From a virus: a stretch of 47,559 nt of DNA. Shown here one piece after another: positions 258-47,559 of the stretch. The translations under genes and the position numbers were made by a program. The first letter of the stretch is position 1, and every line of letters begins with the position of its first letter. The notes below the pieces were generated by a model. That model ran no database searches, was not told the DNA's origin, and saw only the letters and a program-made list of their open reading frames with translations. Location: IMG/VR virus record IMGVR_UViG_3300042549_004748, positions 1 to 47,559 of that record. One strand, 5' to 3'.

Positions 258-476
258 ATGGAAACCGCAAAAGATATAATGGATCATTTTATTAGCCGTG
301 CAAAGCACTTACAAGAATTTGATGTTACAACCGAAGTACCAAACGACTTTAGATTTAATGGAGTAGTGCCATTTGATCTTGTTATCAAAGATGGTATTTT
401 ATATGCTAAGGTATGGGCTGTAGACTTTGACGAGGCTGCAAAACGATTGGATGATTTTTTGGAAACATGTAAATGA
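258..476 (+). CDS. Unknown small protein, 72 aa
   Basis: The start is the ATG at 258, preceded by AAAGGA at 247-252. The same frame stays open upstream to an ATG at 9, but that extension overlaps the preceding gene throughout and is discarded. The product is a compact mixed alpha/beta protein, MAETAKD-like helix first (METAKDIMDHF) and a C-terminal helix EAAKRLDDFLE. No known family is recognised. Its stop TGA overlaps the ATG of the cupin-like gene at 473 (ATGA), so the two are probably translationally coupled. Confidence 0.65.
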   Translation: METAKDIMDHFISRAKHLQEFDVTTEVPNDFRFNGVVPFDLVIKDGILYAKVWAVDFDEAAKRLDDFLETCK

Positions 477-934
477 AATGGTTGTTGAATACATTAGAAA
501 AATTTGGTCGCAAACGTATTGTAATGGACAGACAAGCAAATGAACCTTATCTCGAACGTTACTACATTTTTCTTAAAGACAGAAAGTATTTCCCCTTTAA
601 TGTGTTCATTCACAAGTTTCTTAAGTCAGACCCCGATGATGTGCATGATCATCCATGGCCTTACGCTACGCTTATCTTAAAGGGCGGTTACTACGAATGG
701 ACACCTGTCTTTAATACTGATGGTAAGAAGATTGCCGAAATGTGCAAGTGGCGTGGACCGGGACATTTTCGAGTATGTAGTGCCAGTAGCTATCATCGTA
801 TTGAGCTAGATCCCAATGTAACCGCATGGACAATGTTTATGCCAGGTCCGCAAACACGAGAATGGGGATTCCTTGTCAATAACAAGTGGATTCACAATGA
901 CGAATATTTAGAGCAAAGAAAAACCAATGGATAG
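473..934 (+). CDS. Cupin-like protein
   Basis: A 153-residue protein with the ligand pattern of a metal-binding cupin: H58 and H60 in DVHDHPWPY, E75 in GGYYEW, and H108 in SSYHRIEL. The beta-rich spacing LILKGGYYEW then PGHFRV fits the two cupin motifs. Cupins are small beta-barrels that act as dioxygenases, isomerases or binding proteins, so the reaction cannot be named from sequence. Similar short cupin-like proteins occur in aquatic T4-like phages. It overlaps the gene before by 4 bases and the MazG-like gene after by 8 bases, so it is part of a metabolic gene run. Seen: the motif. Inferred: metal binding. Confidence 0.7.
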   Translation: MKWLLNTLEKFGRKRIVMDRQANEPYLERYYIFLKDRKYFPFNVFIHKFLKSDPDDVHDHPWPYATLILKGGYYEWTPVFNTDGKKIAEMCKWRGPGHFRVCSASSYHRIELDPNVTAWTMFMPGPQTREWGFLVNNKWIHNDEYLEQRKTNG

Positions 935-1199
935 TAAATTAAAAGAAGTTATGGATATCCTGCAAGAAGAATGTGCAGAAGTTATCCAAGCAGTTAGTAA
1001 AATTAGTCGGTTTGGAATTGACAATTTCAAACCAGGTAAGCCGAAGACTAATCGAGAACACCTCGAAGAAGAATTGGGCGATATGCTCGCAATGATTGAC
1101 ATCATGCTAGAAAAGAGTGTAATATCGTTAGAACACTTAGAAGCTGCAAAGGCTGCTAAGATCGAAAAACTAAAGAAGTGGTCAAACATATATGAGTAA
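927..1199 (+). CDS. MazG-like nucleotide pyrophosphohydrolase
   Basis: A 90-residue all-alpha protein with the metal-binding acidic pattern of the MazG/dUTPase-like NTP pyrophosphohydrolase superfamily: E14, E15 and E18 in the helix EECAEVIQ, and E47-E49 with D52 in EEELGDML. The length fits single-domain phage MazG-like proteins. Known members hydrolyse (d)NTPs to monophosphates, and phage versions are thought to adjust nucleotide or alarmone pools during infection. The substrate here is not predictable. It overlaps both neighbours by 8 bases and sits next to queE-like and FEN genes, consistent with nucleotide metabolism. Confidence 0.85.
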   Translation: MDSKLKEVMDILQEECAEVIQAVSKISRFGIDNFKPGKPKTNREHLEEELGDMLAMIDIMLEKSVISLEHLEAAKAAKIEKLKKWSNIYE

Positions 1200-2055
1200 A
1201 ATTAAGATAGCAGAACTGTTTTACAGTATCCAGGGTGAAGGACGCTACATGGGCGTCCCGTCTGTGTTTCTACGCACATTTGGGTGCAACTTCACTTGCC
1301 AGGGGTTCGGCATGCCGCGTGGAGAAGTAAGTCACGAAGCAACAGATATTGCGGCTACCCACACAATGATTAAAGCATTTGACAAATATGAAGAACTTCC
1401 GCTTGTTAGTACTGGGTGTGATAGTTATGCTTCTTGGCATCCAGATTTTAAGGACCTTAGTCCTATGCTTACAACAGACGCCATCGCAAATAGAATTTCG
1501 GAGATATTGCCCTTCAATGAATGGAAAGATGAGCACCTAGTTATTACTGGTGGCGAACCGTTGTTAGGTTGGCAACGTGCTTATCCAGACTTACTCAATC
1601 ACGAAAAGATGCGTGGCCTAAAAGAGATTACGTTTGAAACAAATGGTACTATGCGGCTTACACAGGCATTCAAAGATTATCTAATTCAATGGCAAATGCC
1701 TAATGTTGATTTTCAACGTGAGATTACTTTTAGTGTAAGTGCCAAACTTCCGTGCTCAGGCGAACCGTGGGATGATGCAATCAAACCTGCAGTAGTGTGC
1801 GACTATGAAAACTACGGCACAGTTTATTTGAAGTTTGTTATTGCCACTGAGCAAGACTTTGCTGATGCTGAATGTGCTATTGCCGCTTATCGTAAAGCAG
1901 GGTTCACTGGTCACATTTATCTAATGCCCGTAGGCGGAGTAGAAACTGTTTATTCACTAAACAATCGTAAAGTAGCAGACATGGCAATGAAACATGGGTT
2001 AAGATATAGTGATCGACTTCAGGTGCCGTTGTTTAAGAATGAGTGGGGAACATAA
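1192..2055 (+). CDS. queE: QueE-like radical-SAM protein with split cluster motif
   Basis: The N-terminus has the QueE signature YSIQGEG followed by GVPSVFLRTFGC, and GGEP lies at residues 120-123 as in radical-SAM TIM barrels. QueE makes 7-carboxy-7-deazaguanine on the way to preQ0, and phages use such pathways to make deazaguanine DNA bases. The usual cluster motif CX3CX2C followed by D-T/S-x-Y is broken. C32 and C36 are in place, but the third cysteine appears to be C76 in GCDSYASW, after 39 residues instead of 2. No other deazaguanine gene (folE, queD, queC, dpd) is in the window. It may be a related radical-SAM enzyme rather than true QueE. Overlaps the gene before by 8 bases; the stop TAA shares a base with the next ATG. 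Confidence 0.8.
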   Translation: MSKIKIAELFYSIQGEGRYMGVPSVFLRTFGCNFTCQGFGMPRGEVSHEATDIAATHTMIKAFDKYEELPLVSTGCDSYASWHPDFKDLSPMLTTDAIANRISEILPFNEWKDEHLVITGGEPLLGWQRAYPDLLNHEKMRGLKEITFETNGTMRLTQAFKDYLIQWQMPNVDFQREITFSVSAKLPCSGEPWDDAIKPAVVCDYENYGTVYLKFVIATEQDFADAECAIAAYRKAGFTGHIYLMPVGGVETVYSLNNRKVADMAMKHGLRYSDRLQVPLFKNEWGT

Positions 2056-2471
2056 TGAAAAAATTTATTAAACGAGTATTAGGAATAGACAAGATTGAAT
2101 TAGCTGCCGAAGCAGCTCTTCAGGCGAAATTAAAAGAACAACTTGTTGTCGAAGAAACAATTCGACTTGCTAAGTTAACTCCAAAAGAACGTGCAACAGA
2201 AAAAGAAGAATCATATATTGCAGTACTTGACACTAAAGTAAACAAAGATAATGTAAGAAATGGCTTTTTTGAGCTTGACTGGAACGAGTATTTTATAGTA
2301 GAATTAAGACTAGCAGGTTACAATGGCGACAGCGACGAAGAGATTGTCGATAGATGGTTTCAGGATTTGTGCCGTAACATTGGGAACGAAGCAGGAGTTG
2401 ATATGGACGGACGTGGATCTGGCTATGTCAATGTAAACAACTTAGGCAACGGCAAAGCCGAAATTAGCTAA
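2055..2471 (+). CDS. Unknown protein, 138 aa
   Basis: The ATG at 2055 (TAATG overlap with the previous stop, purine-rich GTGGGGA just upstream) is preferred to an in-frame ATG at 2043. The product begins with a short basic segment (MKKFIKRVLG), then an Ala/Glu/Lys helical region that may form a coiled coil (about residues 12-55), then a more globular acidic C-terminal half with ELDWNEYFIVELR and GVDMDGRGSGYVN. No family is recognised with confidence. The stop TAA shares its last A with the ATG of the FEN gene at 2471, so translation is probably coupled to it. Confidence 0.65.
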   Translation: MKKFIKRVLGIDKIELAAEAALQAKLKEQLVVEETIRLAKLTPKERATEKEESYIAVLDTKVNKDNVRNGFFELDWNEYFIVELRLAGYNGDSDEEIVDRWFQDLCRNIGNEAGVDMDGRGSGYVNVNNLGNGKAEIS

Positions 2472-3457
2472 TGGTATATATTTTAGTCGATACAGCAAAC
2501 ACATTCTTTCGTGCAAGACACGTAGTCCGCGGTAACGCAGATGAAAAAGTAGGAATGGCAATGCAAATTATTCTTAACTCTGTTAGGAAGGCGTGGAGAG
2601 ATTTTAACGGAACCCATGTGGTGTTTTTCTTAGAAGGTCGAAGCTGGCGTAAGGATGCGTATGCGCCCTATAAGCGGCAACGTACAGAAGCTCGGGCGGC
2701 ACATAGTCCTCGCGAAGCTGAAGAAGAAAAATTGTTTTGGGAAACATTTGATCAATTCAAAGAGTTTATTATTAATAAGACTAATTGCACAGTACTACAA
2801 CATCCTAGGTTAGAAGCAGATGATTTAATCGCAGGCTTCATCCAAAGCCATCCAAATGATAGTCACATTGTTATTTCAACAGACGGCGACTTCGCACAAT
2901 TAATCGCACCAAATGTTAAACAATATAACGGTGTTACTCAAGTTACAATTACGCACGAGGGATATTTTGATGAGAAGGGCAAGTATGTAATCGATAAGAA
3001 AACTAACTTACCCAAATCTATTCCAGATCCCGAATGGTTGTTATTTGAAAAATGTATGCGTGGCGATACTAGCGATAACATCTTTAGTGCGTATCCGGGT
3101 GTGCGTGAAAAAGGCACAAAGAATAAAGTCGGTCTTCGTGAGGCATTTGCGGATCGTGATTCCAAAGGCTATAATTGGAACAACATGATGCTTCAGCGTT
3201 GGACCGACCACGAAGGAGTAGAACAGAGAGTTAAAGAATGCTATGAACGCAATAAATTGTTATGCGATCTAACTGCACAACCGGAAGATATCCGCGCTAT
3301 CATTACTGAAACAATTAAAGAAGCACTTGGAAAAGAGAAGAATATTTCTCAAGTAGGAATTCGCTTACTCAAATTTTGTGCAGAATACGATCTTCAACGA
3401 ATCAGCGATAACGTGCAGTCGTATGCAGATCCATTAAACGCAAGGTATGTAAAATGA
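2471..3457 (+). CDS. rnh: FEN-type 5'-3' exonuclease / RNase H (T4 rnh-like)
   Basis: A 328-residue flap-endonuclease-family nuclease that in T4 removes RNA primers and 5' flaps during lagging-strand synthesis. The acidic metal sites are visible in order: D7 in ILVDTANTFF, E115/D117/D118 in LEADDLI, D138/D140 in ISTDGDF, and D199/D202 in RGDTSDN followed by a helix-hairpin-helix-like stretch (PGVREKGTKNKVG). The length is close to T4 RNase H (about 305 aa). It overlaps the previous stop by one base (TAATG) and the next gene by ATGA. Family assignment is firm; T4-like role is inferred from the phage type. Confidence 0.9.
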   Translation: MVYILVDTANTFFRARHVVRGNADEKVGMAMQIILNSVRKAWRDFNGTHVVFFLEGRSWRKDAYAPYKRQRTEARAAHSPREAEEEKLFWETFDQFKEFIINKTNCTVLQHPRLEADDLIAGFIQSHPNDSHIVISTDGDFAQLIAPNVKQYNGVTQVTITHEGYFDEKGKYVIDKKTNLPKSIPDPEWLLFEKCMRGDTSDNIFSAYPGVREKGTKNKVGLREAFADRDSKGYNWNNMMLQRWTDHEGVEQRVKECYERNKLLCDLTAQPEDIRAIITETIKEALGKEKNISQVGIRLLKFCAEYDLQRISDNVQSYADPLNARYVK

Positions 3458-3942
3458 ACGCAGTTGCTAAAGTATTAGTTCCGAATAAAATTTGGATAGT
3501 GGAAGACGGTGGGAAAAAACTAGGCACACTGAACAAAGAAAAGAAAGGTTTTAGTTTTTATCGACAGGGGGTAAAAATTGATTTTCCCACTAAAGAAGAA
3601 ATTAAAAATCAGTTTGGTGAGGATGTACGGAAAGAAGTAGAAAAAATTATTAAAGTTTCTACAAAAAAGCCAGAGGTTTTACTAAATGTTTACGAGTATC
3701 CATGTAGCAGTAAACCACACAATCCAGTTTATAATATTAAAAAGAAGCTGCCAATCTACTCTAAGAGTAGTAAAAGTAAAAGTTTGTACTGTGCAGGGTA
3801 TTATATTATTCAATTTCGGAAAGGATGGGTTAAGAGCTTTTGTCCTAAACTAATTACATTGGAACGATATCCATATAAAGGACCTTTTAAGACTGATGAG
3901 GATATGAAGCAATCACTTAGCCAACTAGGAAAAGAAAAATGA
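3454..3942 (+). CDS. Unknown phage protein, 162 aa
   Basis: A basic, Lys-rich protein. The N-terminal part, IWIVEDGGKKLGTLNKEKKGFSF, looks like a small beta sheet that repeats a 'label and display' pattern. The C-terminal part, beginning near KKLPIYSKSSKSKS, has a conserved-looking core: CAGYYIIQF, GWVKSFCPKLITLERYPYKGPF. I recall similar unnamed proteins in marine T4-like phages but cannot give a function. The start ATG overlaps the FEN stop (ATGA) and the stop overlaps the next ATG in the same way, so it is within the same translational unit as the exonuclease. Confidence 0.65.
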   Translation: MNAVAKVLVPNKIWIVEDGGKKLGTLNKEKKGFSFYRQGVKIDFPTKEEIKNQFGEDVRKEVEKIIKVSTKKPEVLLNVYEYPCSSKPHNPVYNIKKKLPIYSKSSKSKSLYCAGYYIIQFRKGWVKSFCPKLITLERYPYKGPFKTDEDMKQSLSQLGKEK

Positions 3943-4163
3943 CCTATCTTAACACTTTACCTATAGAAATGTTCTTGGAAAAGGCCAGAATTGCTGTAAA
4001 AAGTAATCAAAAGAGTCTAAATCTAGACATAAAAGAAGTACAAGCACTATATGATAGTCTAGCTACAACAATGACTAGATTAGCTGGATCGGAAAAGCCA
4101 GTTGTAATAAGTACCCCTGTTCAAGAGTCAATGCAGGTTAAAATGGACGGTGGTAGATTTTAA
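3939..4163 (+). CDS. Unknown small protein, 74 aa
   Basis: Starts by ATGA overlap with the preceding stop. The first about 50 residues are predicted helical (IEMFLEKARIAVKSNQ, DIKEVQALYDSLATTMTRL), followed by a flexible Val/Ser/Pro tail ending MDGGRF. No motif or family is recognised. A late-promoter-like AATAAATA and an inverted repeat lie just after its stop. Confidence 0.6.
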   Translation: MTYLNTLPIEMFLEKARIAVKSNQKSLNLDIKEVQALYDSLATTMTRLAGSEKPVVISTPVQESMQVKMDGGRF

Positions 4164-4172
4164 TAAATTTGG

Positions 4173-4180
4173 AATAAATA
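4173..4180 (+). promoter_or_regulatory. Possible T4-type late promoter element
   Basis: AATAAATA matches 7 of 8 bases of the T4 late -10 element TATAAATA and lies 28 bases before the ATG at 4209. Transcription from it would begin downstream of the ATG at 4182, which supports 4209 as the start. AT-rich surroundings make a chance match possible. Confidence 0.3.
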
Positions 4181-4210
4181 TATGCGTACACAATTCCGGA
4201 GCGCATATAT
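4178..4210. repeat. Perfect 9-bp inverted repeat around a ribosome binding site
   Basis: ATATATGCG at 4178-4186 is the exact reverse complement of CGCATATAT at 4202-4210. The 15-base loop ends with GGAG (4198-4201), the likely Shine-Dalgarno sequence for the ATG at 4209. The right arm contains the first bases of that start codon. It could be an operator or a hairpin affecting initiation. Confidence 0.6.
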
Positions 4211-4520
4211 GTCAAGGCCTAAGCCAAAAGTATTATTAGAAATTACCAATAAAAAGACTTATAAGACTGAACAAGTCTTAGAGGCAGATGCTATTTGGGC
4301 AGTTTTTTACAAGGAACAACCTGTAAACTTAAAAACTACCAGCATCATAGCACAACGACTGGGTCCGAAATATAAAAAAGTTAGTTTTTCTAACAAAGGT
4401 CACGCATTTAATCTTGCAGAAAAGCTCAATAAACTTTTCACTTGCAATGACTTTGCTGTATTCAAGTTAACTACGGGTGAGCAGGTCAACTATGATGGAT
4501 CAGAAGACGTTACTAACTAG
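4209..4520 (+). CDS. Unknown basic protein, 103 aa
   Basis: The start at 4209 (MSRPKPKVLLEI) is chosen because GGAG lies 7 bases upstream. An in-frame ATG at 4182 would add nine residues and also has a weaker GGAA upstream. The product is Lys-rich with a compact alpha/beta pattern: EITNKKTYKTEQV, AIWAVFYKEQPVNL, then a C-terminal helix AFNLAEKLNKLF and a beta hairpin with TTGEQVNYDGS. No family is recognised. Its 3' end overlaps the next gene by about 29 bases. Confidence 0.6.
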   Translation: MSRPKPKVLLEITNKKTYKTEQVLEADAIWAVFYKEQPVNLKTTSIIAQRLGPKYKKVSFSNKGHAFNLAEKLNKLFTCNDFAVFKLTTGEQVNYDGSEDVTN

Positions 4521-4887
4521 GAAGATCTTAGAACAACTAGGAATTCAAATCACGGAAAAAAGTTTCAAAGACTGGTATAGATTGTGGTGGCAAAACCCTA
4601 GAGAAACTGGCAGCATGAGACTTACTGACAGAGGGTTAGAAGATTTTGAACAAAAAGCAGGGTTCAAATCTTACAAGATAGACTTTCCGCAACCACTAGA
4701 CACAGTAACCAATCAATTTATTTTAGATTTAGAGCATTTTATTGGTAGCCCGTACTACCTTAGTCGAAAGCACATTGTAGTTTTTACCGAAAAACTTGCA
4801 GTCCAACTAGTACTTTTTGGGGGAGATCTCCAAAAATATAACAAAGCTAAAACAATGTCGCAAAAATACAACACAAAATCTGCTTGA
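4492..4887 (+). CDS. Unknown protein, 131 aa
   Basis: ATG at 4492 is preferred, with AGG at 4485-4487 as ribosome site; a GTG at 4477 in the same frame is less likely, and an ATG at 4495 is also possible. The product contains SFKDWYRLWWQNPRETGSMRLTDRG, followed by FEQKAGFKSYKIDFP and a helical region with FILDLEHFIGSPYYL and KHIVVFTEKLAVQLVLFGGDL. I recall similar unnamed proteins in T4-like phages; no function can be given. The stop TGA lies inside the -35 box of the next promoter. Confidence 0.65.
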   Translation: MMDQKTLLTRKILEQLGIQITEKSFKDWYRLWWQNPRETGSMRLTDRGLEDFEQKAGFKSYKIDFPQPLDTVTNQFILDLEHFIGSPYYLSRKHIVVFTEKLAVQLVLFGGDLQKYNKAKTMSQKYNTKSA

Positions 4888-7939: not shown

Positions 7940-8530
7940 ATGAAACACGTCGGAAAAATGAAAAACAACTCTGCTAGGGTTGCTGTTGTATATCGAACAA
8001 TTCCAGGAGATCCACATAACTGTTTAGTGGTGGGAACTCAAGGGTTAGGTGATAGCTATCACGACACCCTAATGACTGTACTAGAAAGCGATAACGGGCA
8101 ACAGGCTAACGAGTTAGCAGATATTTTGTCTGCAAGACGCTTTCCAGATGGCAGTAACATGTTAGGTTATCTGCATAACAATGGACATTTGATTAAGGTA
8201 AAAACAACCTTAGTTAACATGACACCTGATTCACAAACTGTAATTGCATTAAATGAACTTAATGAGATCATTGCAACCCAAAAAGGTATTACAATTGATG
8301 AACTAGCAGTAAATGACGGTTCACAGAAAAAAGCAGAAAAGAAAGTTGCACCTAAAAAAGCGGTCGATACATCTGCAGATTCTAAATCAGATTTTGAACT
8401 TTCTCCAGCTGAACTACGCTCAAGAGCAGATGCATTATTCAAACAAGCTCAACAATTACGTAAGCAGGCTGACGAGATGGATCCTCCAAAAAAGAAAACA
8501 GTCAAGGCTGAAAAAATCGTTGCTGAATGA
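7940..8530 (+). CDS. Conserved unknown phage protein with basic helical tail, 196 aa
   Basis: Start at ATG 7940 after TAGGAG (7926-7931). The N-terminal 125 residues are globular: VAVVYRTIPGDPHNCLVVGT, GDSYHDTLMTVLES, then RRFPDGSNMLGYLHNNG and LNELNEIIATQKG. This pattern is familiar from unnamed proteins of marine T4-like phages. The C-terminal part is Lys/Ala-rich (AEKKVAPKKAVDT) followed by a helix with LRSRADALFKQAQQLRKQADEMD, which is probably a coiled coil or nucleic-acid-binding tail. The stop overlaps the frd start (ATGA), so it is coupled to the thymidylate genes. Confidence 0.7.
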   Translation: MKHVGKMKNNSARVAVVYRTIPGDPHNCLVVGTQGLGDSYHDTLMTVLESDNGQQANELADILSARRFPDGSNMLGYLHNNGHLIKVKTTLVNMTPDSQTVIALNELNEIIATQKGITIDELAVNDGSQKKAEKKVAPKKAVDTSADSKSDFELSPAELRSRADALFKQAQQLRKQADEMDPPKKKTVKAEKIVAE

Positions 8531-9021
8531 TTAACGCAGTAGTGGCAGTGGAGAGGGATCAGGGTATTGGCTTCGAAGGAAGCATGCCTTGGCCGCATCT
8601 TAGTAAGGATCTTCAATGGTTCAAAAAATTAACAAGTAATCAAATTGTTATAATGGGATCAACAACTTGGAAAAGTTTAGGATGCAAACCATTACCTAAT
8701 AGAATTAATGTAGTGTTATCTAAGACACATAATTTTTCAGGACAAGGTGCAGCTGATCATACTTTTTCAAATCCAGATACTGCGATAGTTTTCTGTAGTA
8801 ACGAATATCCCGATAACGAAATTTTTATAATCGGCGGTAGTGCCATTTATAAAGAATATGCTGGATTTATAGATAGGTATTATGTAACAGAGATAGATGC
8901 CAACTTTCAATGCGACACATTCTTTAATTTAGACTATGTAAAAACAAACTTTACAAAAGTTAAAGAACATGCTACATTTACTGATCCAGTAAAATATATT
9001 ATAAAAGAGTACAACGTATGA
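8527..9021 (+). CDS. frd: Dihydrofolate reductase
   Basis: A 164-residue DHFR of normal length. Family features are VVAVERDQGIGFEGSMPWPHLSKDLQWFK at the N-terminus (the Asp of KDLQWFK is the usual catalytic acid), VIMGSTTWKSLG, PLPNRINVVLS, and the NADPH-binding IFIIGGSAIYKEY. It reduces dihydrofolate to tetrahydrofolate, needed because thymidylate synthase oxidises the cofactor. It overlaps the previous gene and td (both ATGA), the same frd-td order as in T4. Supports dTMP supply for phage DNA. Confidence 0.95.
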   Translation: MINAVVAVERDQGIGFEGSMPWPHLSKDLQWFKKLTSNQIVIMGSTTWKSLGCKPLPNRINVVLSKTHNFSGQGAADHTFSNPDTAIVFCSNEYPDNEIFIIGGSAIYKEYAGFIDRYYVTEIDANFQCDTFFNLDYVKTNFTKVKEHATFTDPVKYIIKEYNV

Positions 9022-9902
9022 AACATTCAGAACACGCATACCTAAATGCATTAAAAGACATTTTAGAAAACGGCGAATCACGACCGGACAGAACAGGTGT
9101 AGGTACTATTAGTAAATTTGGATTGCAAATGCGATTTGACCTTACCGAAGGATTTCCTGCTGTTACTACTAAAAAGTTAGCGTGGAAAGCAGTGGTAAGC
9201 GAACTACTTTGGTTTATCGAAGGCAGTGGAGATGAAGGTCGTTTACGAGAAATTTTGCACGGTGAACGATATACAGATAAGAAAACAATCTGGACAGAGA
9301 ATGCACAGGCTCCTTATTGGGTAGAAAAAAGACTACAACGACATCCTGCAGATCTTGGCCGTATATACGGTGTACAATGGCGCAAATGGCGTAAACCATT
9401 AGTGCGTATTAACAAAGTTGTCTTGCAAAATCACGATCAACTAATTGAGTTAATTAACAGTATTAAAGAAGATCCGTACAGTCGAAGACATATTATCTCA
9501 GCGTGGAATCCGGGAGAACTAGACATGATGGCTTTGCCGCCGTGCCATATGATGGCACAATTTTACGTCAATAACGGCAAATTAAGTTGTCAAATGTATC
9601 AGCGTAGTGCTGACATGTTTCTGGGAGTGCCGTTCAATATTGCATCTTACGCATTGTTTACTCACATGGTTGCACAGGTGTGTAATTTAGAAGTTGGTGA
9701 ACTAATTATTGCTATCGGCGATGCTCATATCTACGAAAACCATGTAGAGCAAGTTAAAGAACAATTAACAAGAGATCCGTTGCCTTTGCCTAAGTTATCA
9801 CTTAATCCAGAAATTAGTGTGATTACACACTTTGGTATGGAAGATGTTAACTTAGAAGGGTACGAAAGTCATGAAGCTATTAAAGCTCCAATGGCTCGTT
9901 AA
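9018..9902 (+). CDS. td: Thymidylate synthase (ThyA type)
   Basis: A 294-residue ThyA-type synthase converting dUMP to dTMP with methylene-tetrahydrofolate. Visible motifs are SRPDRTGVGT near the N-terminus, the nucleophile Cys in PPCHMM, QRSADMFLGVPFNIASYALF (dUMP-binding Arg/Asp/Asn), and GDAHIYENH near the C-terminus. Length is close to T4 td (286 aa); no intron is seen, unlike T4. Coupled to frd by ATGA. Its TAA (9900-9902) overlaps the TAA of the opposing fibre gene, so this is the convergent border of the plus-strand metabolic block and the minus-strand structural operon. Confidence 0.96.
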   Translation: MKHSEHAYLNALKDILENGESRPDRTGVGTISKFGLQMRFDLTEGFPAVTTKKLAWKAVVSELLWFIEGSGDEGRLREILHGERYTDKKTIWTENAQAPYWVEKRLQRHPADLGRIYGVQWRKWRKPLVRINKVVLQNHDQLIELINSIKEDPYSRRHIISAWNPGELDMMALPPCHMMAQFYVNNGKLSCQMYQRSADMFLGVPFNIASYALFTHMVAQVCNLEVGELIIAIGDAHIYENHVEQVKEQLTRDPLPLPKLSLNPEISVITHFGMEDVNLEGYESHEAIKAPMAR

Positions 9903-16443: not shown

Positions 16444-18114
16444 TCAGACTGGGGTTTGTCTACCGTATGAATAGATTCTAGGTCTTGGGTATATTTGACC
16501 AGTAACCCTTCTAATGCCCACATTTTGTTTTGGAAAGACTTGACCTTCATCTTGGTGTTCTCTTGTGTAGTACAGATATCTATTCACAGAACCCTGCAAA
16601 GAATTAAAATCTGCAGGGCCGCCGTTAGTGTTTGTCATCTGGTTTAATTTTGACGTACTTTCTATATAAGTCACTGCTGCTGTTTGATTCATTGTGGGAT
16701 ATAATTCAAGCGCACACGCAAGCAATCCAGCAACTTGTGGAGATGCCATACTAGTGCCATTATACTTTGTAATAAATTTACTAGCATTTCTATAATCATA
16801 TGTGCCGCCGTTAGTATCACTATTGACTGAACTCATAATGTTAGAGCCTGGCGCATATACATTAATTCTCGATCCGCAGTTGCTAAATTGTGCCTTAGCT
16901 TCATTTGCATACTCTCCTACTGCCCCTACACATATTGAGTTAGCAGTTGCAGAAGGACTAGTGCCTCGCATATATGGCAATGTGCCGTAAATAAATGCAC
17001 TAACAACGTTGTTATAATCTATATCAGTGGAGGATGCAATTTTACTAAAATTATTGCCGGCACCACCAACAAACATAATACCTTCGTTAATTGCATCTTC
17101 AACATCTGCATCCATTGGAGCATATCTTGTAGAAATGTAAAAAACATCGCCGCTGGAGGTGGTGTAAGCAAAAATACCATAACTTAATGCTTGACTTTTT
17201 GTGAAAGGACCAGTATACTCAGTGCCTCTATAGTTAATAGTACCTACTGTACTAAGTGGTCCTGTTAAGAAGTAACCCCAACTATTATTAACAATAGTAG
17301 GATTTTTGCGCCCAGTTTCAGAATTTATAGGTTTATTTCTGTGAAATGCTCTAACATAATCAAACAAGGCAGGCGGCGCTGATGGTATATAACTTATGCT
17401 AGATCCGTAAGGATTAATGTTGTATATATTAGCGTCGCGAGCCCATCCCTGAGTGTTGCCACAAGCGGTGCCTGCTACATGACACCCGTGATCATTATTA
17501 GATGTCCGACTGGGGTTAGTTTGATCAACGTAAGGTGGGTAGATATAGGTGCCGGCCGCTGTTCCTAACACTTCAAAATTATGTTGAAACCAATTGTATT
17601 GATTGACTCGCGATCCTCCAGTACCGTCGTTGTTCACTGCAAACTCTGGATGATCGGGATCAATATGCCCATCACAAATAACTACATCCACATTCTTTCC
17701 GCTAGTAGCAATATCAATGCTACCTATCTGTGTAGTAGTTGCATCCCAACCCCAGTTAGTTATATTTGAATTTAGTGTACAACGATATAGACCCCAATTC
17801 CTGTGATCATTTCTAATCTTTACAGAACTCTTGTCCCATTTTAGAGAACTTTGAGTATATAAAGGAGTTGCTTCTAATCCAAGATCAGCAGGCAATAAAG
17901 ATACTGAGGAGATTCTAGAATCATTTCGTAGTGCTACGGCTTCTTCGTCAGTTAGATAATAATGAGTGTTTCTGCTGATCGGTCTTTTCAATGCTACTTC
18001 AACTGATCGGTCAGGAATATAAAGATTTCCGCCAGGTGTTTCCATATCTTCGTAAAACGAGTTAAGGTCTTCAAAATTCTTTAGCGTAACAATATATTCT
18101 TTAATATTGGACAT
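16444..18114 (-). CDS. Subtilisin-like serine protease (S8 family) in the tail operon, 556 aa
   Basis: The S8 catalytic set is present in order: D148 in VVICDGHIDPDHPEF, H209 in DHGCHVAGTACG, oxyanion N354 in GGAGNNF, and S455 in NGTSMASPQVAG. Around residues 1-78 the sequence YIVTLKNFEDLNSFYEDM to RISSVSLLP resembles an I9-type inhibitory propeptide. There is no signal peptide. A basic, Pro-rich tail (about 520-556) follows the catalytic domain. Its place among fibre genes suggests a virion protein that cleaves host surface proteins, or one that matures fibres; neither is shown. The His motif has Cys in place of the usual Thr (HGCHVAG), and the Asp motif is DGH rather than DTG. Confidence 0.9.
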   Translation of the reverse strand: MSNIKEYIVTLKNFEDLNSFYEDMETPGGNLYIPDRSVEVALKRPISRNTHYYLTDEEAVALRNDSRISSVSLLPADLGLEATPLYTQSSLKWDKSSVKIRNDHRNWGLYRCTLNSNITNWGWDATTTQIGSIDIATSGKNVDVVICDGHIDPDHPEFAVNNDGTGGSRVNQYNWFQHNFEVLGTAAGTYIYPPYVDQTNPSRTSNNDHGCHVAGTACGNTQGWARDANIYNINPYGSSISYIPSAPPALFDYVRAFHRNKPINSETGRKNPTIVNNSWGYFLTGPLSTVGTINYRGTEYTGPFTKSQALSYGIFAYTTSSGDVFYISTRYAPMDADVEDAINEGIMFVGGAGNNFSKIASSTDIDYNNVVSAFIYGTLPYMRGTSPSATANSICVGAVGEYANEAKAQFSNCGSRINVYAPGSNIMSSVNSDTNGGTYDYRNASKFITKYNGTSMASPQVAGLLACALELYPTMNQTAAVTYIESTSKLNQMTNTNGGPADFNSLQGSVNRYLYYTREHQDEGQVFPKQNVGIRRVTGQIYPRPRIYSYGRQTPV

Positions 18115-18640: not shown

Positions 18641-21157
18641 TTAAAAAGTTTCCAGTGCGTATCGATACCATCTACCGTCTGCAGCACAAATATACATATA
18701 CGAATTATCGGAAGTAATCATACCAGGAGTTCCTATAGAATTAGTAGTCAACGGAACTGGAACAACGTAGGCATCAGTAGTTGAAGATGCTTTGCAAGAT
18801 ATAGGATTTACTGCAAAGAAATTAGATCCATTAAAAATATTAGGTCTAATCACTGACGCAGTATACCCGTCTAGTCCCCTAAATCCACAACCTACTAAAG
18901 CAATTGGGAATCCAAATGCACTATTAGATGCTTCACAACGAATATGATTAGTTGAATAACTAGTTGTAATTCTATTAAAACTGCAACCAGTGATTGCGCC
19001 AACAACTCCAGTATTAGCTTCAGTTGCTTCGATCCACAAATTAGATCTGCCACCGTTAGCTTCAAAGTAGACACCTTGCAATGAGAACCCTACTGATGAT
19101 TCTGCAACATTGTCACCACCGGGGTCAGTAATTCTTAGACCCCAATTAGCTGCACTTTCAAGTGTGCCACTAGCGTTCGACTCAATAGAACCACCTATGT
19201 AATTAAATGTGCCGGCGCCAACTATCCATCCACCGTAGGTTGTATTATTGCCAATGACACATCCAATCATAGTAATTGCATTTGGATTAGATCTAAATGT
19301 ACCAGCTGTACTTCTTTCAAATCTAAATCCGTTGGTATTAAATCTAATAATAACTTTTTCAAATGTCATACTTAATACGTCAATTCCGTATATGCCAGTT
19401 GCCCAGTTAGTAATATGTACATCAGACACATGTGCAAATGCACTGTCCGCAAATGACAGGCCGGCACCTGATTGGTTACCGACTAGTGTTAAACCTTGAA
19501 TTGTAACATATGTTCCGGGTACCGCGGCGGCTCCGGTAACAGTAATACCGTTTGAAGACCCTGTTTGTATAATTACGCTTCCGCCAGCACCTTCACCTAA
19601 TAAGTGAGGTCTTGCAGCAGGATCTTGATCATTAGTAACAATATTCAACGCTTGGTTAATTCTGTAGACTCCGGCTGGAAAAAACACAGTGCCGCCGTTA
19701 GTTTGAGCAGCAGTGATAGCTGATTGAATAGCAGCGGTTTCGGCAGACGTGGCGGCCTGGCTTGCGTTTGCCGGCAAGTTACCAGTTGCTCCATAATTCT
19801 TAACATTATAAGTCCAAGAAACGCCCGACGGTCCTTGACTGCCAGCAAAGCCAATTCCATTCATACCAGGTGAGCCACTGCTGCCGGTATAACCGAGCGT
19901 ACCAACACTACCAAAATATCCATCAACACCTCGACTACCTATAAATCCTGTTGTACCTCGAGACCCCACAAAGCCAGATAAACCTTGACTACCTACAAAG
20001 CCACCAGGGGATCCCGGAGCACCTTGACTACCTACAAAGCCACCAGGGGATCCCGGAGCACCTTGACTACCTACAAATCCGTTGCCAGCACTACCAACAA
20101 ATCCTATAGATCCGGTTACGCCAATGCTACCTGTAAATCCTGGGCCGCCGCTGCCTACAAACCCTTGGGCGCTGCTGCCTGTAAAGCCGGCACCGGCGCT
20201 GCCGCTAAAGCCTAGATTTCCTGTAGCACCATTTGACCCAGTATATCCAAGAGCGGCAAATGCCCCGGAACTACCAGTAAATCCGCCACCAGCGCTACCG
20301 CTATAGCCAAGACCGCCAAAGCCGGTTGCACCTCTGCTACCAGAGTATCCACCTGGTATTCCAGGTATACCTTGACTACCAATAAATCCATCTCGGCCGG
20401 CTGCAACTTCAATCCACTGTGAGGTATCACCATCATTGAAATAAACTAATTCTCTTCCAGAATTTGAATCTAGCCACCTGTCTCCAACAGCTGGCGTAGT
20501 AGGAGCCGTCGAACTATATGTAAATGAACTTTCACCTTTAGGACCCACGCTGCCCGAAAATCCCCTACTACCTGTAAATCCCGGACCGCCCGATCCAGTA
20601 AATCCAGGACCTGCACTACCTACGAATCCAAGAGGGCCCTGGCCACCACTTCCGGTATACCCACCTGGAGATCCAGGAAGACCTTGACTACCAATAAACC
20701 CACCAATGCCGCCACTTCCAGTATATCCTCCTGGAATTCCCGGAACGCCTTGACTACCTGCAAAACCGGCGCCTATACTACCAGTAAAACCAAATTCTCC
20801 TAAGCTACCTGTATAACCAAGTGAACCTACGTATCCATTGCTTCCTACAAGGCCGATGCTACCAGTAAATCCTGATCCGGCGCTGCCGCTAAAGCCTAAA
20901 CCTCTACTACCAGAGTATCCTCCAGTAGGACCGCGTGGACCAATTGGACCTTGACTACCTGCAAAGCCTGCACCCCTACTACCAACGAATCCTCGCAAGC
21001 CTTGAGCACCAGCAGTGCCCCGGGAACCTACGTATCCAACCGAAGTCGACCTAATATATGCCCAGGTTACGACTTTAGTTACTCCGTTTTCAGTAACTAG
21101 GAATAGCGTCTGATTGCTTAAACTACTAACTCTTGGTAGATTTGATATTGTTGTCAT
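18641..21157 (-). CDS. Collagen-like fibre with right-handed beta-helix (pectate-lyase-like) C-terminus, 838 aa
   Basis: Residues about 41-445 consist of Gly-rich repeats of the type G-[FY]-x-G-S-x-G and Gly-x-y (GFVGSQGAPGSPG, GYTGSNGATG), interrupted near 205-250 by a short globular module with GDRWLDSNSGRELVYF. From about residue 449 the sequence is a right-handed parallel beta-helix of the pectate-lyase-3 type (VKNYGATGN, AAIQSAITAAQTNGGTVFFPAGVYRI, HVSDVHI, FNYIGGSIESNAS, GFSLQGVYFEANGG). Such domains in tailspikes bind or cleave cell-surface polysaccharide. No catalytic residues can be assigned. AAAGAGAA precedes the ATG. It is likely a receptor-binding or depolymerase-type fibre. Confidence 0.85.
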   Translation of the reverse strand: MTTISNLPRVSSLSNQTLFLVTENGVTKVVTWAYIRSTSVGYVGSRGTAGAQGLRGFVGSRGAGFAGSQGPIGPRGPTGGYSGSRGLGFSGSAGSGFTGSIGLVGSNGYVGSLGYTGSLGEFGFTGSIGAGFAGSQGVPGIPGGYTGSGGIGGFIGSQGLPGSPGGYTGSGGQGPLGFVGSAGPGFTGSGGPGFTGSRGFSGSVGPKGESSFTYSSTAPTTPAVGDRWLDSNSGRELVYFNDGDTSQWIEVAAGRDGFIGSQGIPGIPGGYSGSRGATGFGGLGYSGSAGGGFTGSSGAFAALGYTGSNGATGNLGFSGSAGAGFTGSSAQGFVGSGGPGFTGSIGVTGSIGFVGSAGNGFVGSQGAPGSPGGFVGSQGAPGSPGGFVGSQGLSGFVGSRGTTGFIGSRGVDGYFGSVGTLGYTGSSGSPGMNGIGFAGSQGPSGVSWTYNVKNYGATGNLPANASQAATSAETAAIQSAITAAQTNGGTVFFPAGVYRINQALNIVTNDQDPAARPHLLGEGAGGSVIIQTGSSNGITVTGAAAVPGTYVTIQGLTLVGNQSGAGLSFADSAFAHVSDVHITNWATGIYGIDVLSMTFEKVIIRFNTNGFRFERSTAGTFRSNPNAITMIGCVIGNNTTYGGWIVGAGTFNYIGGSIESNASGTLESAANWGLRITDPGGDNVAESSVGFSLQGVYFEANGGRSNLWIEATEANTGVVGAITGCSFNRITTSYSTNHIRCEASNSAFGFPIALVGCGFRGLDGYTASVIRPNIFNGSNFFAVNPISCKASSTTDAYVVPVPLTTNSIGTPGMITSDNSYMYICAADGRWYRYALETF
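19830..21037 (-). repeat. Collagen-like coding repeat region
   Basis: About 400 codons of Gly-Ser-rich repeats inside the fibre gene. The units are degenerate at DNA level except for the exact 39-base tandem at 19982-20077. In-frame unit gain or loss is expected in such regions. Confidence 0.85.
19982..20077. repeat. Exact 39-bp tandem repeat (2.5 copies)
   Basis: Copies at 19982-20020 and 20021-20059 are identical and a third begins at 20060, ending after 18 bases. Each unit encodes 13 residues (GFVGSQGAPGSPG, in phase). Perfect identity next to diverged copies suggests recent duplication. Confidence 0.92.
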
Positions 21158-21171
21158 GTTGCGTATTCTCT

Positions 21172-24100
21172 TTAATAACCCTTAATTTCTCTTCCATCAT
21201 CTAATAGTAGAGCGCTTCCATCACCGAATCTCAATACTGGATCACCACCATAGTATAATTGATCTGGCGAAATTGCTTCCTTCTTTTTAATAAATGCAGC
21301 TTGCGGTGTAAACTGTTCAAACAATGGTTTTCCTGAGAAAGTAGACCATATTTTTCCGGTACGTTGAACAATTTTAATTTCAACGCTTGCAAGGGTTGCA
21401 GTAGTAATAGTAAGTGTCGCAGTTGTAATCGATCCAGTAATAGTGAATTCTGGAGCTTTTACAGTCATATTTATAGGATTATAATACGATGCAGCATCGT
21501 GGACTAACACGTCAACTCCTACCTTTGTAGGTTTTTCTAGTAGTCGGCCGCCATAGTAAACTTCTACTTGATCATGTAAGTTGATGCTATCTCTAAATAC
21601 AAATTTACTAGTATCTAATTCTATAGTGACGGAAGATGTCGATACAGTAGTCACTGTTGACTCAATTACTACACTTTCTTGATAAGGAATAGTCTGCTGC
21701 TTGCCTTGGTCAAATACCCAAGTTCCTATCATGTAATGTTCTTTTGCACCAGTGCCCATTGTAGCTCTCTTAATGCGAGATAAAATATTTCCATTCTTTT
21801 CAAGATATTCAATGCGCTCGCCTGCAATAAAAATAATACCAGGGCTATTAGATTTGCTATCTGCATTGGGCAACACATCACCATTCTCTACATGTATTTC
21901 TGTATCAGTGAGACCCAATGGAACAACTAAGTAGGTAGTATCAGTATTGCTTAATCGCTTAAAGTGTGTACGGCCAATCATATCTCTAAAAATTTTCCAA
22001 CCAACTGTCTTACCAGCAGTGACTTGAGCAAAACTAGTAATAGTAACTTGGTCTTCGGCATTAAACGGAATAGCCTGGTCAACCATAACTGTCATACCAT
22101 CGCCTACCACTTCAAAATCAGTTCCTCCGAGCAATGTTTTATCTCCCACAGTCATCCATACTAAATTATCGTTTAGTACTTTTCTAGATATCTTGTACAT
22201 TCTTGTAGAACTTGCTTTATAAACTTCAGTCCTAATTAGTGCGGCATCGTGATTTGTAAATGTTAAAATTCTTAGATAGTTTTCTGTTGGTAGGAAAATT
22301 CTACTAGCAATCTCTAAATCATTACCTCTAATTAAATAATCATAATCAATCAATGAAGTAATAGCTACCACATCTCCCATTGCAAAAGTATCATCTTCAA
22401 ATACAATATTATTGTTAATATCATCTAGATAATAATCTGTAGGAATAACTTGCTTACCATTAATGAATACTTCAATGCGGGTCTTATCAAAAGAATTTGG
22501 TGGATACACTTCCTTAGAACTTATTAAGAATGTAGTTTGATTTACATTAGTAATTTCATAATAGGTTGTGTTAGGAGGAGTTAATCTCTTTCTATTAAAT
22601 TCTACGATAGAGTTAGCAGACGCTGGACCTAGTGTGCCGGGCGGTTGAGTTAATGTAATAACTCTGTCATCTTCTTTTAGATTAAAGTATTGCTGTTCAA
22701 ATACTTCACTGAATCCCTTAAATGCAGATGTAAAAAATGCTGCGGTGATTGTATTCTTTCCGTCAGTACCCAATCCGTATATAGTAACTTTAGCTCTACT
22801 ATCGATCCCTGGATTAGATTCTCCAAATACATAATAGACTGATTGTCCAAGGAAGGCGCCAGCTGTATATACCCGTTGACCATTTAACGTTACATACACG
22901 CTCTTAGCTTGTGAATATTGACAATCGCCAAGAACTGCGCCAATAGTCGAACCTTCGGTAACATTAGAATTTAGACTAATAAATCCGGTGCCACCAACGT
23001 CCATGCAAACAACTGCAACTGTTCCAGAGACAGATTTTGCATAAACTGTTATCTTCTTAGTTGCAAAGTCAATATCGTAATCAGCATTTCTAATTAATGG
23101 TTCGTTATTATAAGTTACTGAAATAGACCCAACAGATGGAGATAAAATACTTAAATTAATATCAGTGTTAACTCCGGCATATGCATGTTGTAATTGATTA
23201 TAGATAGTTGCACTACCAGAAACACTCCTGTTGAATACACTAATTCCAATTGATTCTCTTAACTCTCCTGGAATCATTTCTTCAGGAGCATAACTTCTTA
23301 TAGGAGAAATAAATGTATCACCATCCAATATAATATCTTCCGGATTAATGCCGGCTGCTGTAGAAAATACTTTAGTTGTACCAGTAGTTGCTACAGAGCC
23401 TCCGTCAATAATTGTATCTAAATCAGTTGTGTCGAAACTTTGTTTATCCCATGGTAATGAACTATACGGGCTAGAATCCCATGTAAAATCATACCATAAA
23501 TTTTGAGAAATAATTTCAGTTCCTGGATATTCCATACCTGACATTAATTGAGCATAATTTTCAGCAGGATTTGCACCAGGAGAATCTAACGGCACATTGT
23601 CGTAATAGTTTGCAATCCTATCATACGCAGAATAAATGTCTATGCTCTTTAGATATGTAATACGAATACTTGCGTCAGCTTCTGGCACATTAGATAAAAT
23701 TAATCTAGTATAATTTTGCGTATAACCATTGGCATTATCTGTGTAGTCTTCAATTTCGTACGACGAAGATGCAGCCGGTACTCCGTTTATTTTTAATACA
23801 ATTTCTGTTTTATCTGGATGAGATGGCCAAGATAAATCAAATTGATTAGTTACTCCGTCTCCTACAAAGTTATCAGTATAGTATTTGTTTGTAATTAATC
23901 TAGATTTAGAAATCCTGTCAAATTTCATTCCTATTAGATTTGATCTAACTTTTCCGTTTACTAAATGTACAGTAGCCCGTGCTACGGTATCTGTAGGTGT
24001 TAGTCCGCCTCCTGTAATTAATACCGTAGGATTTAATGTATATCCTTCACCAGAATCTATAATTTCAAATCTATCAATCTTTCCTGAAGATAGTACGGCT

Positions 24101-47552: not shown

Positions 47553-47559
47553 TAATGAA

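Follow-up and report, generated by a model that had tools for sequence, protein, structure and literature searches.

A gene at positions 1192 to 2055 (+) of a virus record, IMGVR_UViG_3300042549_004748 of IMG/VR, encodes a QueE-like radical S-adenosylmethionine (SAM) protein whose iron-sulfur cluster motif is split by a long insert. We analyzed the stretch from position 1 to position 47,559 of that record, a length of 47,559 nucleotides, and refer to it as the window. QueE makes a precursor of modified guanines, and radical SAM enzymes are usually recognized by a tight CX3CX2C motif. We conclude from comparisons of sequence and predicted structure, with a probability of roughly 0.85, that the gene encodes a functional 7-carboxy-7-deazaguanine (CDG) synthase of a split-motif subclass, working in a phage 7-deazaguanine pathway. 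As judged by the same comparisons, the window protein is a member of a split-motif QueE subclass that is widespread, little described and common to many bacteria.

A QueE-like protein with a divided cluster motif

The open reading frame starts with ATG and specifies 287 amino acids. The protein contains YSIQGEG (residues 11-17), GC32NFTC36, GC76DSYASW, GGEP (residues 120-123) and ETNG (residues 149-152). Its cluster motif has the spacing CX3CX39C, that is, 37 residues more than CX3CX2C (residues 38-74), all of them between C36 and C76. A preliminary description of this DNA had reported a QueE-like protein with a motif split by about 37 residues and no cysteine at the usual third position. Both observations proved real: the protein matched PHROG_2076, 'QueE-like radical SAM domain', with an E value of 1.9e-52 (residues 2-286, profile positions 11-246 of 247), its motif cysteines and the following aspartate are invariant among relatives, and residue 39 is a phenylalanine. 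The features are listed below, with conservation taken from an alignment (A2) of the window protein and 87 relatives from viral contigs and bacterial genomes (88 rows, identities 30-82%).

1192..2055, +, split-motif QueE-like radical SAM protein, 287 residues (open reading frame, profile, alignment, model and structure matches)
1231..1242, +, QGEG motif, residues 14-17 (Q14, G15 and E16 invariant and G17 in at least 90% of the 88 rows)
1285..1287, +, C32 codon, first proposed cluster ligand (invariant in 88 rows)
1297..1299, +, C36 codon, second proposed cluster ligand (invariant in 88 rows)
1303..1413, +, 37-residue insert, residues 38-74, with a GFG turn, a predicted helix at 49-60 and an LPLVST run-in to GC76 (breaks in hmmsearch and hhalign alignments; secondary structure of the model)
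1417..1419, +, C76 codon, third proposed ligand, within GCDSYASW (invariant; aligned to the third cysteine of 6nhl and 5tgs)
1549..1560, +, GGEP, residues 120-123 (invariant in 88 rows)
1636..1647, +, ETNG, residues 149-152 (E149 and N151 invariant, T150 in at least 90% of rows)

C76 as the probable third cluster ligand

C32, C36, C76 and D77 did not vary across the 88 rows, nor did N33, F39, T119-P123 (TGGEP), E149, N151, S183, K185, K214, M245 and R275. A chance cysteine at position 76 can be ruled out because C76 is invariant. The preliminary description had proposed C32, C36 and C76 as the cluster ligands and had taken C76-D77-S78 for the end of the canonical motif in a displaced position, and this is supported by the invariance together with profile alignments to the third cysteine of the Escherichia coli and Bacillus subtilis enzymes. 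When the A2 profile was run by hmmsearch against all PDB sequences, three distinct sequences were found at E ≤ 0.001, all of them QueE. Against 5tgs (B. subtilis) and 6nhl (E. coli), the first aligned segment stopped 1-2 residues past C36 and the second began exactly at the third cysteine, in CDSAFTW or CDTKHTW; the third match, 4njg, was aligned only to residue 34 and again from profile position 91, and so is uninformative on C36 and C76. Comparison with four canonical QueE proteins by hhalign (100%, E 2.1e-39) placed the break at the same point.

The AlphaFold2 model of the window protein had a mean pLDDT of 95.5, a pTM of 0.93 and no residue below 70, and modeled the insert as a helix (49-60) flanked by loops. 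In structure comparison (VIA-align) the best match was B. subtilis QueE, 5th5 (Z 23.1, root-mean-square deviation 2.4, 224 residues aligned), followed by E. coli QueE (Z 18.2) and the QueE 4njg (Z 17.3). The four best matches were all QueE, and the best match of another kind was the pyruvate formate-lyase activating enzyme 3cb8 (Z 15.0). The third cysteine was visible in all but two of 240 extracted homologues, both of them fragments that start past the motif (L137, and L138 with 173 residues). These observations point to the binding of one [4Fe-4S] cluster by C32, C36 and C76, and they agree indirectly with the earlier idea that the three converge in the fold.

Family scores and class membership

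Pfam Radical_SAM and Fer4_12 both matched the window protein below their cut-offs, and each of five NCBIfam QueE equivalogs (TIGR03365, TIGR04349, TIGR03963, TIGR04508 and TIGR04322) matched it in two stretches. The window protein and eight further split-type proteins all fell below every NCBIfam QueE cut-off, while E. coli QueE passes its own; split QueE may for that reason be under-annotated in phages and Campylobacterota. The window protein nevertheless has the radical SAM QueE fold in its model (pLDDT 95.5, with QueE as the four top matches) and three conserved cysteines followed by D-S/T. It lacks the contiguous CX3CX2C or CX14CX2C spacing, having CX3CX39C instead. Since spacing already varies among accepted QueE proteins, we take this departure to mark a subclass rather than to exclude the protein from QueE.

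The split motif among phages

Among 50,697 phage records, tblastn found relatives in 139 at E ≤ 1e-5 and in 260 at E ≤ 0.01. We aligned the window protein with 18 proteins from phage records and seven loci of the window clade. A long insert was present in 11 of the 18 phage records, with spacers of 27-42 residues (KVP40, nt-1, BUCT-ZZ01, GR11A, Aura, Ahp1, Mendera, 2.275.O, PA5oct, D479 and Ep032; KVP40 40, nt-1 40, BUCT-ZZ01 38, Mendera 37 by eye). Spacers were shorter in CP220 (17), HCTV-5 (22) and phiSM (6), spacing was canonical in Lephleur, BRET and Yong-L2-223, and the Motura protein read CX10CX2C, the additional residues falling between cysteines 1 and 2. A scan of viral contigs centered on KVP40 returned KVP40 and one relative, and nothing else. 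On these comparisons the split motif is not peculiar to the phage of the window. CP220 also carries a second gene annotated as radical SAM, CPT_0023 (L092, 6325-6735), about 2.6 kb after its short-split QueE.

Spacers were counted by regular expression on 239 proteins (L138 of the 240 being too short), with some contigs present under two locus identifiers. Ten could not be parsed: seven with a visible third cysteine, two Motura copies and the truncated L137. Among the 229 that could, spacers were 34-41 in the window clade (91 rows), 34-45 in a profile-guided viral set (76 rows), 7-38 in bacterial genomes (41 rows) and 2-42 in phage records (17 rows), the other four rows being the window and re-fetched phage records. 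Of the parsed rows, 224 had a spacer of 7 or more, and in 223 of these phenylalanine stood three residues past the second cysteine (CxGF), a figure partly built in by the search, as the pattern CN[FL][TEQ]Cx[GF]F[GS] was required in the scan of bacterial genome contigs and in part of another locus set.

The split motif in bacterial chromosomes

The profile-guided scan of genome contigs yielded 41 loci with the architecture CxxxC-xGF-insert-CD(S/T), 34 of them titled Campylobacterota. These 34 included Sulfuricurvum, Sulfurovum, Nautiliaceae, a complete Helicobacter chromosome and others. We also drew 61 Campylobacterota genomes evenly and searched them with a profile that did not require the CxGF pattern. 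Exactly one QueE match at E ≤ 1e-20 was obtained in 51 and none in 10; at this limit the search found QueE in 10 of 14 control genomes versus 13 of 14 at 1e-3, so a diverged second QueE could escape it. The loci of 30 of those 51 genomes were read, and all were split, with spacers of 7, 12 or 16-18 and with CxGF throughout.

In 17 bacterial genomes (12 titled Campylobacterota, 3 alphaproteobacterial and 2 others) the top QueE match was the split locus in every case (E ≤ 5.3e-45), and the next-best match in a search at 1e-3 was 9.2e-15 or weaker. By eye the three next-best matches (L305, L306 and L307) looked NrdG-like (GCNxRCxYCYN), and L309 looked like another radical SAM protein. Full-length QueC was found in 15 of the 17 genomes (not in G029 or G032) and tRNA-guanine transglycosylase (TGT) in 16 (not in G034). 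In the complete Helicobacter genome the split queE directly follows queD.

Two alphaproteobacterial metagenome-assembled genomes, G030 (240-kb contig, spacer 30) and G031 (159-kb contig, spacer 25), each have a phage-type split QueE and no other strong QueE match; QueC and TGT lie elsewhere in both. In G030 the gene directly follows queD and adjoins Memo/AMMECR1 and inositol-phosphatase-family genes. Out of 58 sampled alphaproteobacterial genomes, 17 matched at E ≤ 1e-12, in 18 places. Proteins could be read at 15 of these places; 14 had CX14CX2C and the fifteenth was G030's own (L222). In a tree of 60 rows, built with the insert columns removed, the long type formed one group of 31 rows (support 100/94), within which three alphaproteobacterial rows (100/97) sat among phage rows. 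The simplest reading is that the long-type QueE of Alphaproteobacteria came by transfer from phage to bacterium. The main caveat on such a transfer is binning error, above all for L221 (a 7-kb contig) and L224, in neither of whose assembled genomes a full-length QueC was found. The Campylobacterota branch lay outside the long-insert group. No single origin of the split motif can be claimed, because the tree put L095, a phage protein with the canonical motif, on its split side with a very long branch.

Partner genes

The preliminary description had found no other gene for 7-cyano-7-deazaguanine (preQ0) in view. This stood for the window but not for its clade. Local searches of the 47.6 kb found no FolE (with a profile built from two FolE proteins), no QueC and no QueD (the one match of a QueD BLAST, over 25 residues at E 0.007, is a chance one), and neither the QueC-like PHROG_1550 nor TGT or DpdA2 was found there. 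The absence of partners is explained by the window edge, as just 1.19 kb precede queE; with 1.29 kb before the gene, the closest locus, L001 (93% identical), is too short to tell. In L002-L004 (identity about 90%; probably near-copies of a single phage), the FolE gene ends 2.1 kb upstream of queE. We then considered the loci among L001-L080 that have at least 4 kb upstream, leaving out the 38 of 80 that are shorter as well as L125-L138 and counting near-identical contigs separately. By the two-protein profile, FolE lay upstream on the same strand, 0.6-5.2 kb away, in 29 of these 42 window-clade loci. The argument that a lack of partners implies a different reaction is thereby ruled out, since FolE lies past the window edge in L002-L004 and upstream in most of the other loci with enough DNA on that side.

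Pfam FolE was found in 35 of 42 records, namely 21 of 28 IMG/VR contigs (including those of 228.8, 122 and 166 kb) and all 14 phage records. QueD was found in 17 of the 42, comprising 12 of the phage records and five of the IMG/VR contigs (G001, G002, G003, G007 and G018). The 228.8-kb relative, G001, encodes FolE, QueD and two QueC-like proteins, whose Pfam scores of 43.1 and 27.3 bits exceed the cut-off of 22 and which matched PHROG_1550 with E values of 8.2e-13 and 4.8e-20. Their genes, at 3955-4605 (-) and 100637-101266 (-) (in L262 and L267), are diverged and have SGGLDS and a C-rich end. QueC-like matches in G165 and G166 were weak. FolE in L002-L004 and the G001 genes speak against the earlier suggestion that the host must supply all the partners.

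The DpdA2 family, PHROG_10773, matched KVP40.0122 and nt-1 YP_008125322, which are named DpdA2 in PMC8056088 and PMC6884629. DpdA2 was found in BUCT-ZZ01, KVP40, nt-1 and Mendera, and GR11A and Aura gave weak TGT and PHROG_10773 matches in frames of 534 and 557 residues. In BUCT-ZZ01 a phosphoribosyltransferase gene and then a small unknown gene separate queE from queD, after which come folE, a glycosyltransferase-like gene (its Pfam match is below the cut-off) and DpdA2; no QueC match was obtained in this phage. Looking beside homologues for folE, queD, queC and dpdA, as had been proposed, gave folE and queD, queC-like genes within the window clade in G001, and DpdA2 in the four phages just named but no dpdA in the window, G001-G009 or G018.

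Several other genes lie close to these. Just before queE in the window, the small genes at 473-934 (+) and 927-1199 (+) gave the PHROG annotations 'cysteine dioxygenase' and MazG-like pyrophosphohydrolase, and the same order was seen by eye in L014, another window-clade locus. In the 2007-4096 region of L014, a UDP-glucose/GDP-mannose dehydrogenase-family gene (3284-4096) lies just upstream of FolE, and the gene before it looks like a glycosyltransferase by eye, with no Pfam match. The glycosyltransferase-like gene of BUCT-ZZ01 (L082, 10778-12121) lies between FolE and DpdA2. Sugar decoration is possibly tied to the deazaguanine genes in L014 and BUCT-ZZ01. The phosphoribosyltransferase gene of BUCT-ZZ01 (L082, 8861-9322) comes directly after queE, and could allow a deazaguanine nucleotide to be made ahead of DNA synthesis.

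Proposed function and alternatives

We propose that FolE would supply dihydroneopterin triphosphate and QueD would turn it into 6-carboxytetrahydropterin (CPH4). The window protein would then cleave SAM at its C32/C36/C76 cluster and rearrange CPH4 to CDG like other QueE proteins, with the 37 residues between C36 and C76 folded out as loop-helix-loop and the ligand set unchanged. Phage or host QueC could carry CDG on to 7-amido-7-deazaguanine (ADG) or preQ0, and DpdA or another route would place the base into DNA. While cluster binding, catalysis and use are all things that we infer, the use is likely to be a phage FolE-QueD-QueE route to a 7-deazaguanine base, probably for DNA. The FolE, QueD, QueE order is that of the published pathway (PMC6884629, PMC13329287). 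KVP40 is listed with FolE, QueD, QueC and DpdA2 (PMC8056088) and nt-1 likewise (PMC6884629); nt-1 DNA carries dPreQ0, dADG and dG+ at low level, and in the DNA of halovirus HVTV-1 dPreQ1 amounts to about 30% of G (PMC6884629). We read the split motif in nt-1 itself, and for HVTV-1 in its relative HCTV-5 only.

Several points weigh against this proposal. The nt-1 host very probably has its own QueE, and the hosts of nt-1 and HVTV-1 very probably make preQ0 themselves, so the bases in these two genomes are compatible with a working split QueE but do not prove one. The window protein missed all NCBIfam QueE cut-offs widely, the best score being 54.1 versus 206.1 bits. No FolE was found in the 4-6 kb upstream in 13 of the 42 window-clade loci, FolE was nowhere on seven of the 28 IMG/VR contigs and QueD was on just five of them, all of which are contigs that may be fragments. 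Among eleven window-clade contigs, G001 alone had QueC-like proteins; the window, G002-G009 and G163 gave none. Searches of the window, G001-G009 and G018 with Pfam TGT, PHROG_10773 and BLAST of the BUCT-ZZ01 and Mendera DpdA2 proteins detected neither TGT nor DpdA2, but the contigs may be incomplete and DpdA diverged. The chromosomal cases offer a stronger argument than the phage bases, because there the split protein is the sole strong QueE match in organisms with QueC and TGT.

The alternative that survives best, although we consider it unlikely, is that the protein boosts host queuosine (or the host's folate and pterin flow) during infection, with CDG going to host QueC and not serving phage DNA. 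The missing DpdA and TGT in the longest window-clade contigs and the restriction of QueC-like genes to G001 would fit this, and Hutinet et al. propose that phages without DpdA boost queuosine in host tRNA (PMC6884629). The same authors, however, also note DpdA-independent insertion into DNA in such phages (PMC6884629), a diverged DpdA may be missed, and in BUCT-ZZ01 DpdA2 is clustered with the split QueE, QueD and FolE.

The preliminary description had allowed for a different reaction and for a new site in the insert that would serve a substrate or partner. A reading built on both, with the protein as a QueE paralogue acting on another pterin or deazapurine, is considerably less probable. Low scores against all NCBIfam QueE equivalogs could be read this way, as could an insert that is longer in the phage clade than in Campylobacterota and the presence beside FolE of a glycosyltransferase-like gene in BUCT-ZZ01 and a sugar-nucleotide dehydrogenase-family gene in L014. 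Yet the insert varies widely while the core motifs are invariant, the neighbors are FolE, QueD and DpdA2, the 228.8-kb relative also carries QueC-like genes, and in bacteria with QueC and TGT a protein of the same architecture is accompanied by no other strong QueE match. A different reaction is therefore not supported.

We give still less weight to an action of the insert on the host cell, for instance on division, in the manner of residues E45-W67 of E. coli QueE. Deletions in that variable region near the cluster motif abolish filamentation, and the E45-E51 deletion remains fully active in queuosine synthesis (PMC11142719). This effect is specific to enterobacterial QueE (PMC11142719), the E. 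coli region sits just after the third cysteine and not within the motif, and the split insert is also present in chromosomal bacterial QueE. Least credible is a protein in which C76 is no ligand (C32 and C36 holding the cluster with some other residue) or a dead or degraded QueE, given intact core motifs, C76 and D77 invariant in 88 rows, their alignment with the third ligand of solved QueE structures, and a third cysteine lacking from view only in the two fragments among 240 homologues.

The insert

Across the split class the insert is 7-45 residues long and variable in sequence, while the catalytic motifs are constant; it usually opens with a GF(G/S) turn and closes with G-C-D-S/T. Such variability speaks against a specific site for a substrate; it leaves room for a role in structure or in binding a partner. 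The E. coli deletions indicate that the enzyme tolerates changes of length close to its cluster loop, though at a different position from the insert. An aromatic residue often precedes the third cysteine in radical SAM motifs. Phe39 (CxGF) is nearly invariant in the split class, and on that conservation we would guess that it takes the place of this aromatic.

As a tentative and somewhat doubtful extension, split QueE may be an unrecognized major subclass with a folded module of 7-45 residues between ligands 2 and 3, in which the CxGF phenylalanine replaces the usual aromatic. The module would be a docking site (for an electron donor, QueD or QueC) or a lid on the cluster; large phages would have elaborated it, and some Alphaproteobacteria would have swapped their CX14CX2C QueE for the phage version.

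A QueE subclass that breaks its cluster motif by up to 45 residues is a test case for how much a cluster loop tolerates. It also makes more phages worth checking for 7-deazaguanine DNA, and suggests that some bacteria adopted a phage-type QueE as their own.

Other genes in the window

Elsewhere in the window, 8527-9902 (+) holds by eye a dihydrofolate reductase-like gene and then a thymidylate synthase-like gene. The reading frame at 16444-18114 (-), among likely tail genes, has by eye the look of a subtilisin-type protease (HGCHVAG, GTSMASP). The reading frame at 18641-21157 (-) has many collagen-like repeats and adjoins a 4215-residue open reading frame at 21172-33819 (-).

Comparison with known systems

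In the open-licence literature, as far as its text was available to us, we found no published description of a CX3CXnC QueE split between ligands 2 and 3, and the KVP40 gene is already listed as QueE (PMC8056088). The newness is likely to lie mainly in the subclass and in its example of motif plasticity, with ordinary chemistry.

The KVP40 (KVP40.0284) and nt-1 (VPFG_00333) members of PHROG_2076 are full-length homologues of the window protein, at 34% and 33% identity. They share its CX3C-long insert-CDS arrangement, with FolE elsewhere in their genomes. Unlike the long contigs of the window clade, in which DpdA was not detectable and QueC-like genes occurred in G001 only, both phages have full-length QueC and DpdA2. 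The nearest isolate is Synechococcus phage BUCT-ZZ01, whose QueE is 47% identical, has a spacer of 38 and neighbors QueD, FolE and DpdA2; it differs in having phosphoribosyltransferase and glycosyltransferase-like genes in the cluster and no QueC that we could find.

The QueE proteins of B. subtilis (5tgs/5th5) and E. coli (6nhl) have the same fold, the same three ligands by alignment, and the CDS/CDT, QGEG, GGEP/GGNP and ETNG-like motifs, but they are CX3CX2C enzymes with no insert between cysteines 2 and 3. The CX14CX2C proteins (NCBIfam TIGR04508; 4njg, which we take to be the Burkholderia multivorans enzyme with this motif; and alphaproteobacterial proteins) carry their extra residues between cysteines 1 and 2, whereas those of the window protein lie between 2 and 3. 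Such CX14CX2C QueE proteins are on record, with the motif broken by an extended loop (PMC4389238). The chromosomal QueE of Campylobacterota, with CX3C-xGF-insert-CD(S/T), has its insert between the same two ligands as the window protein, but that insert is only 7-18 residues long and the proteins fall outside the long-insert group of the tree.

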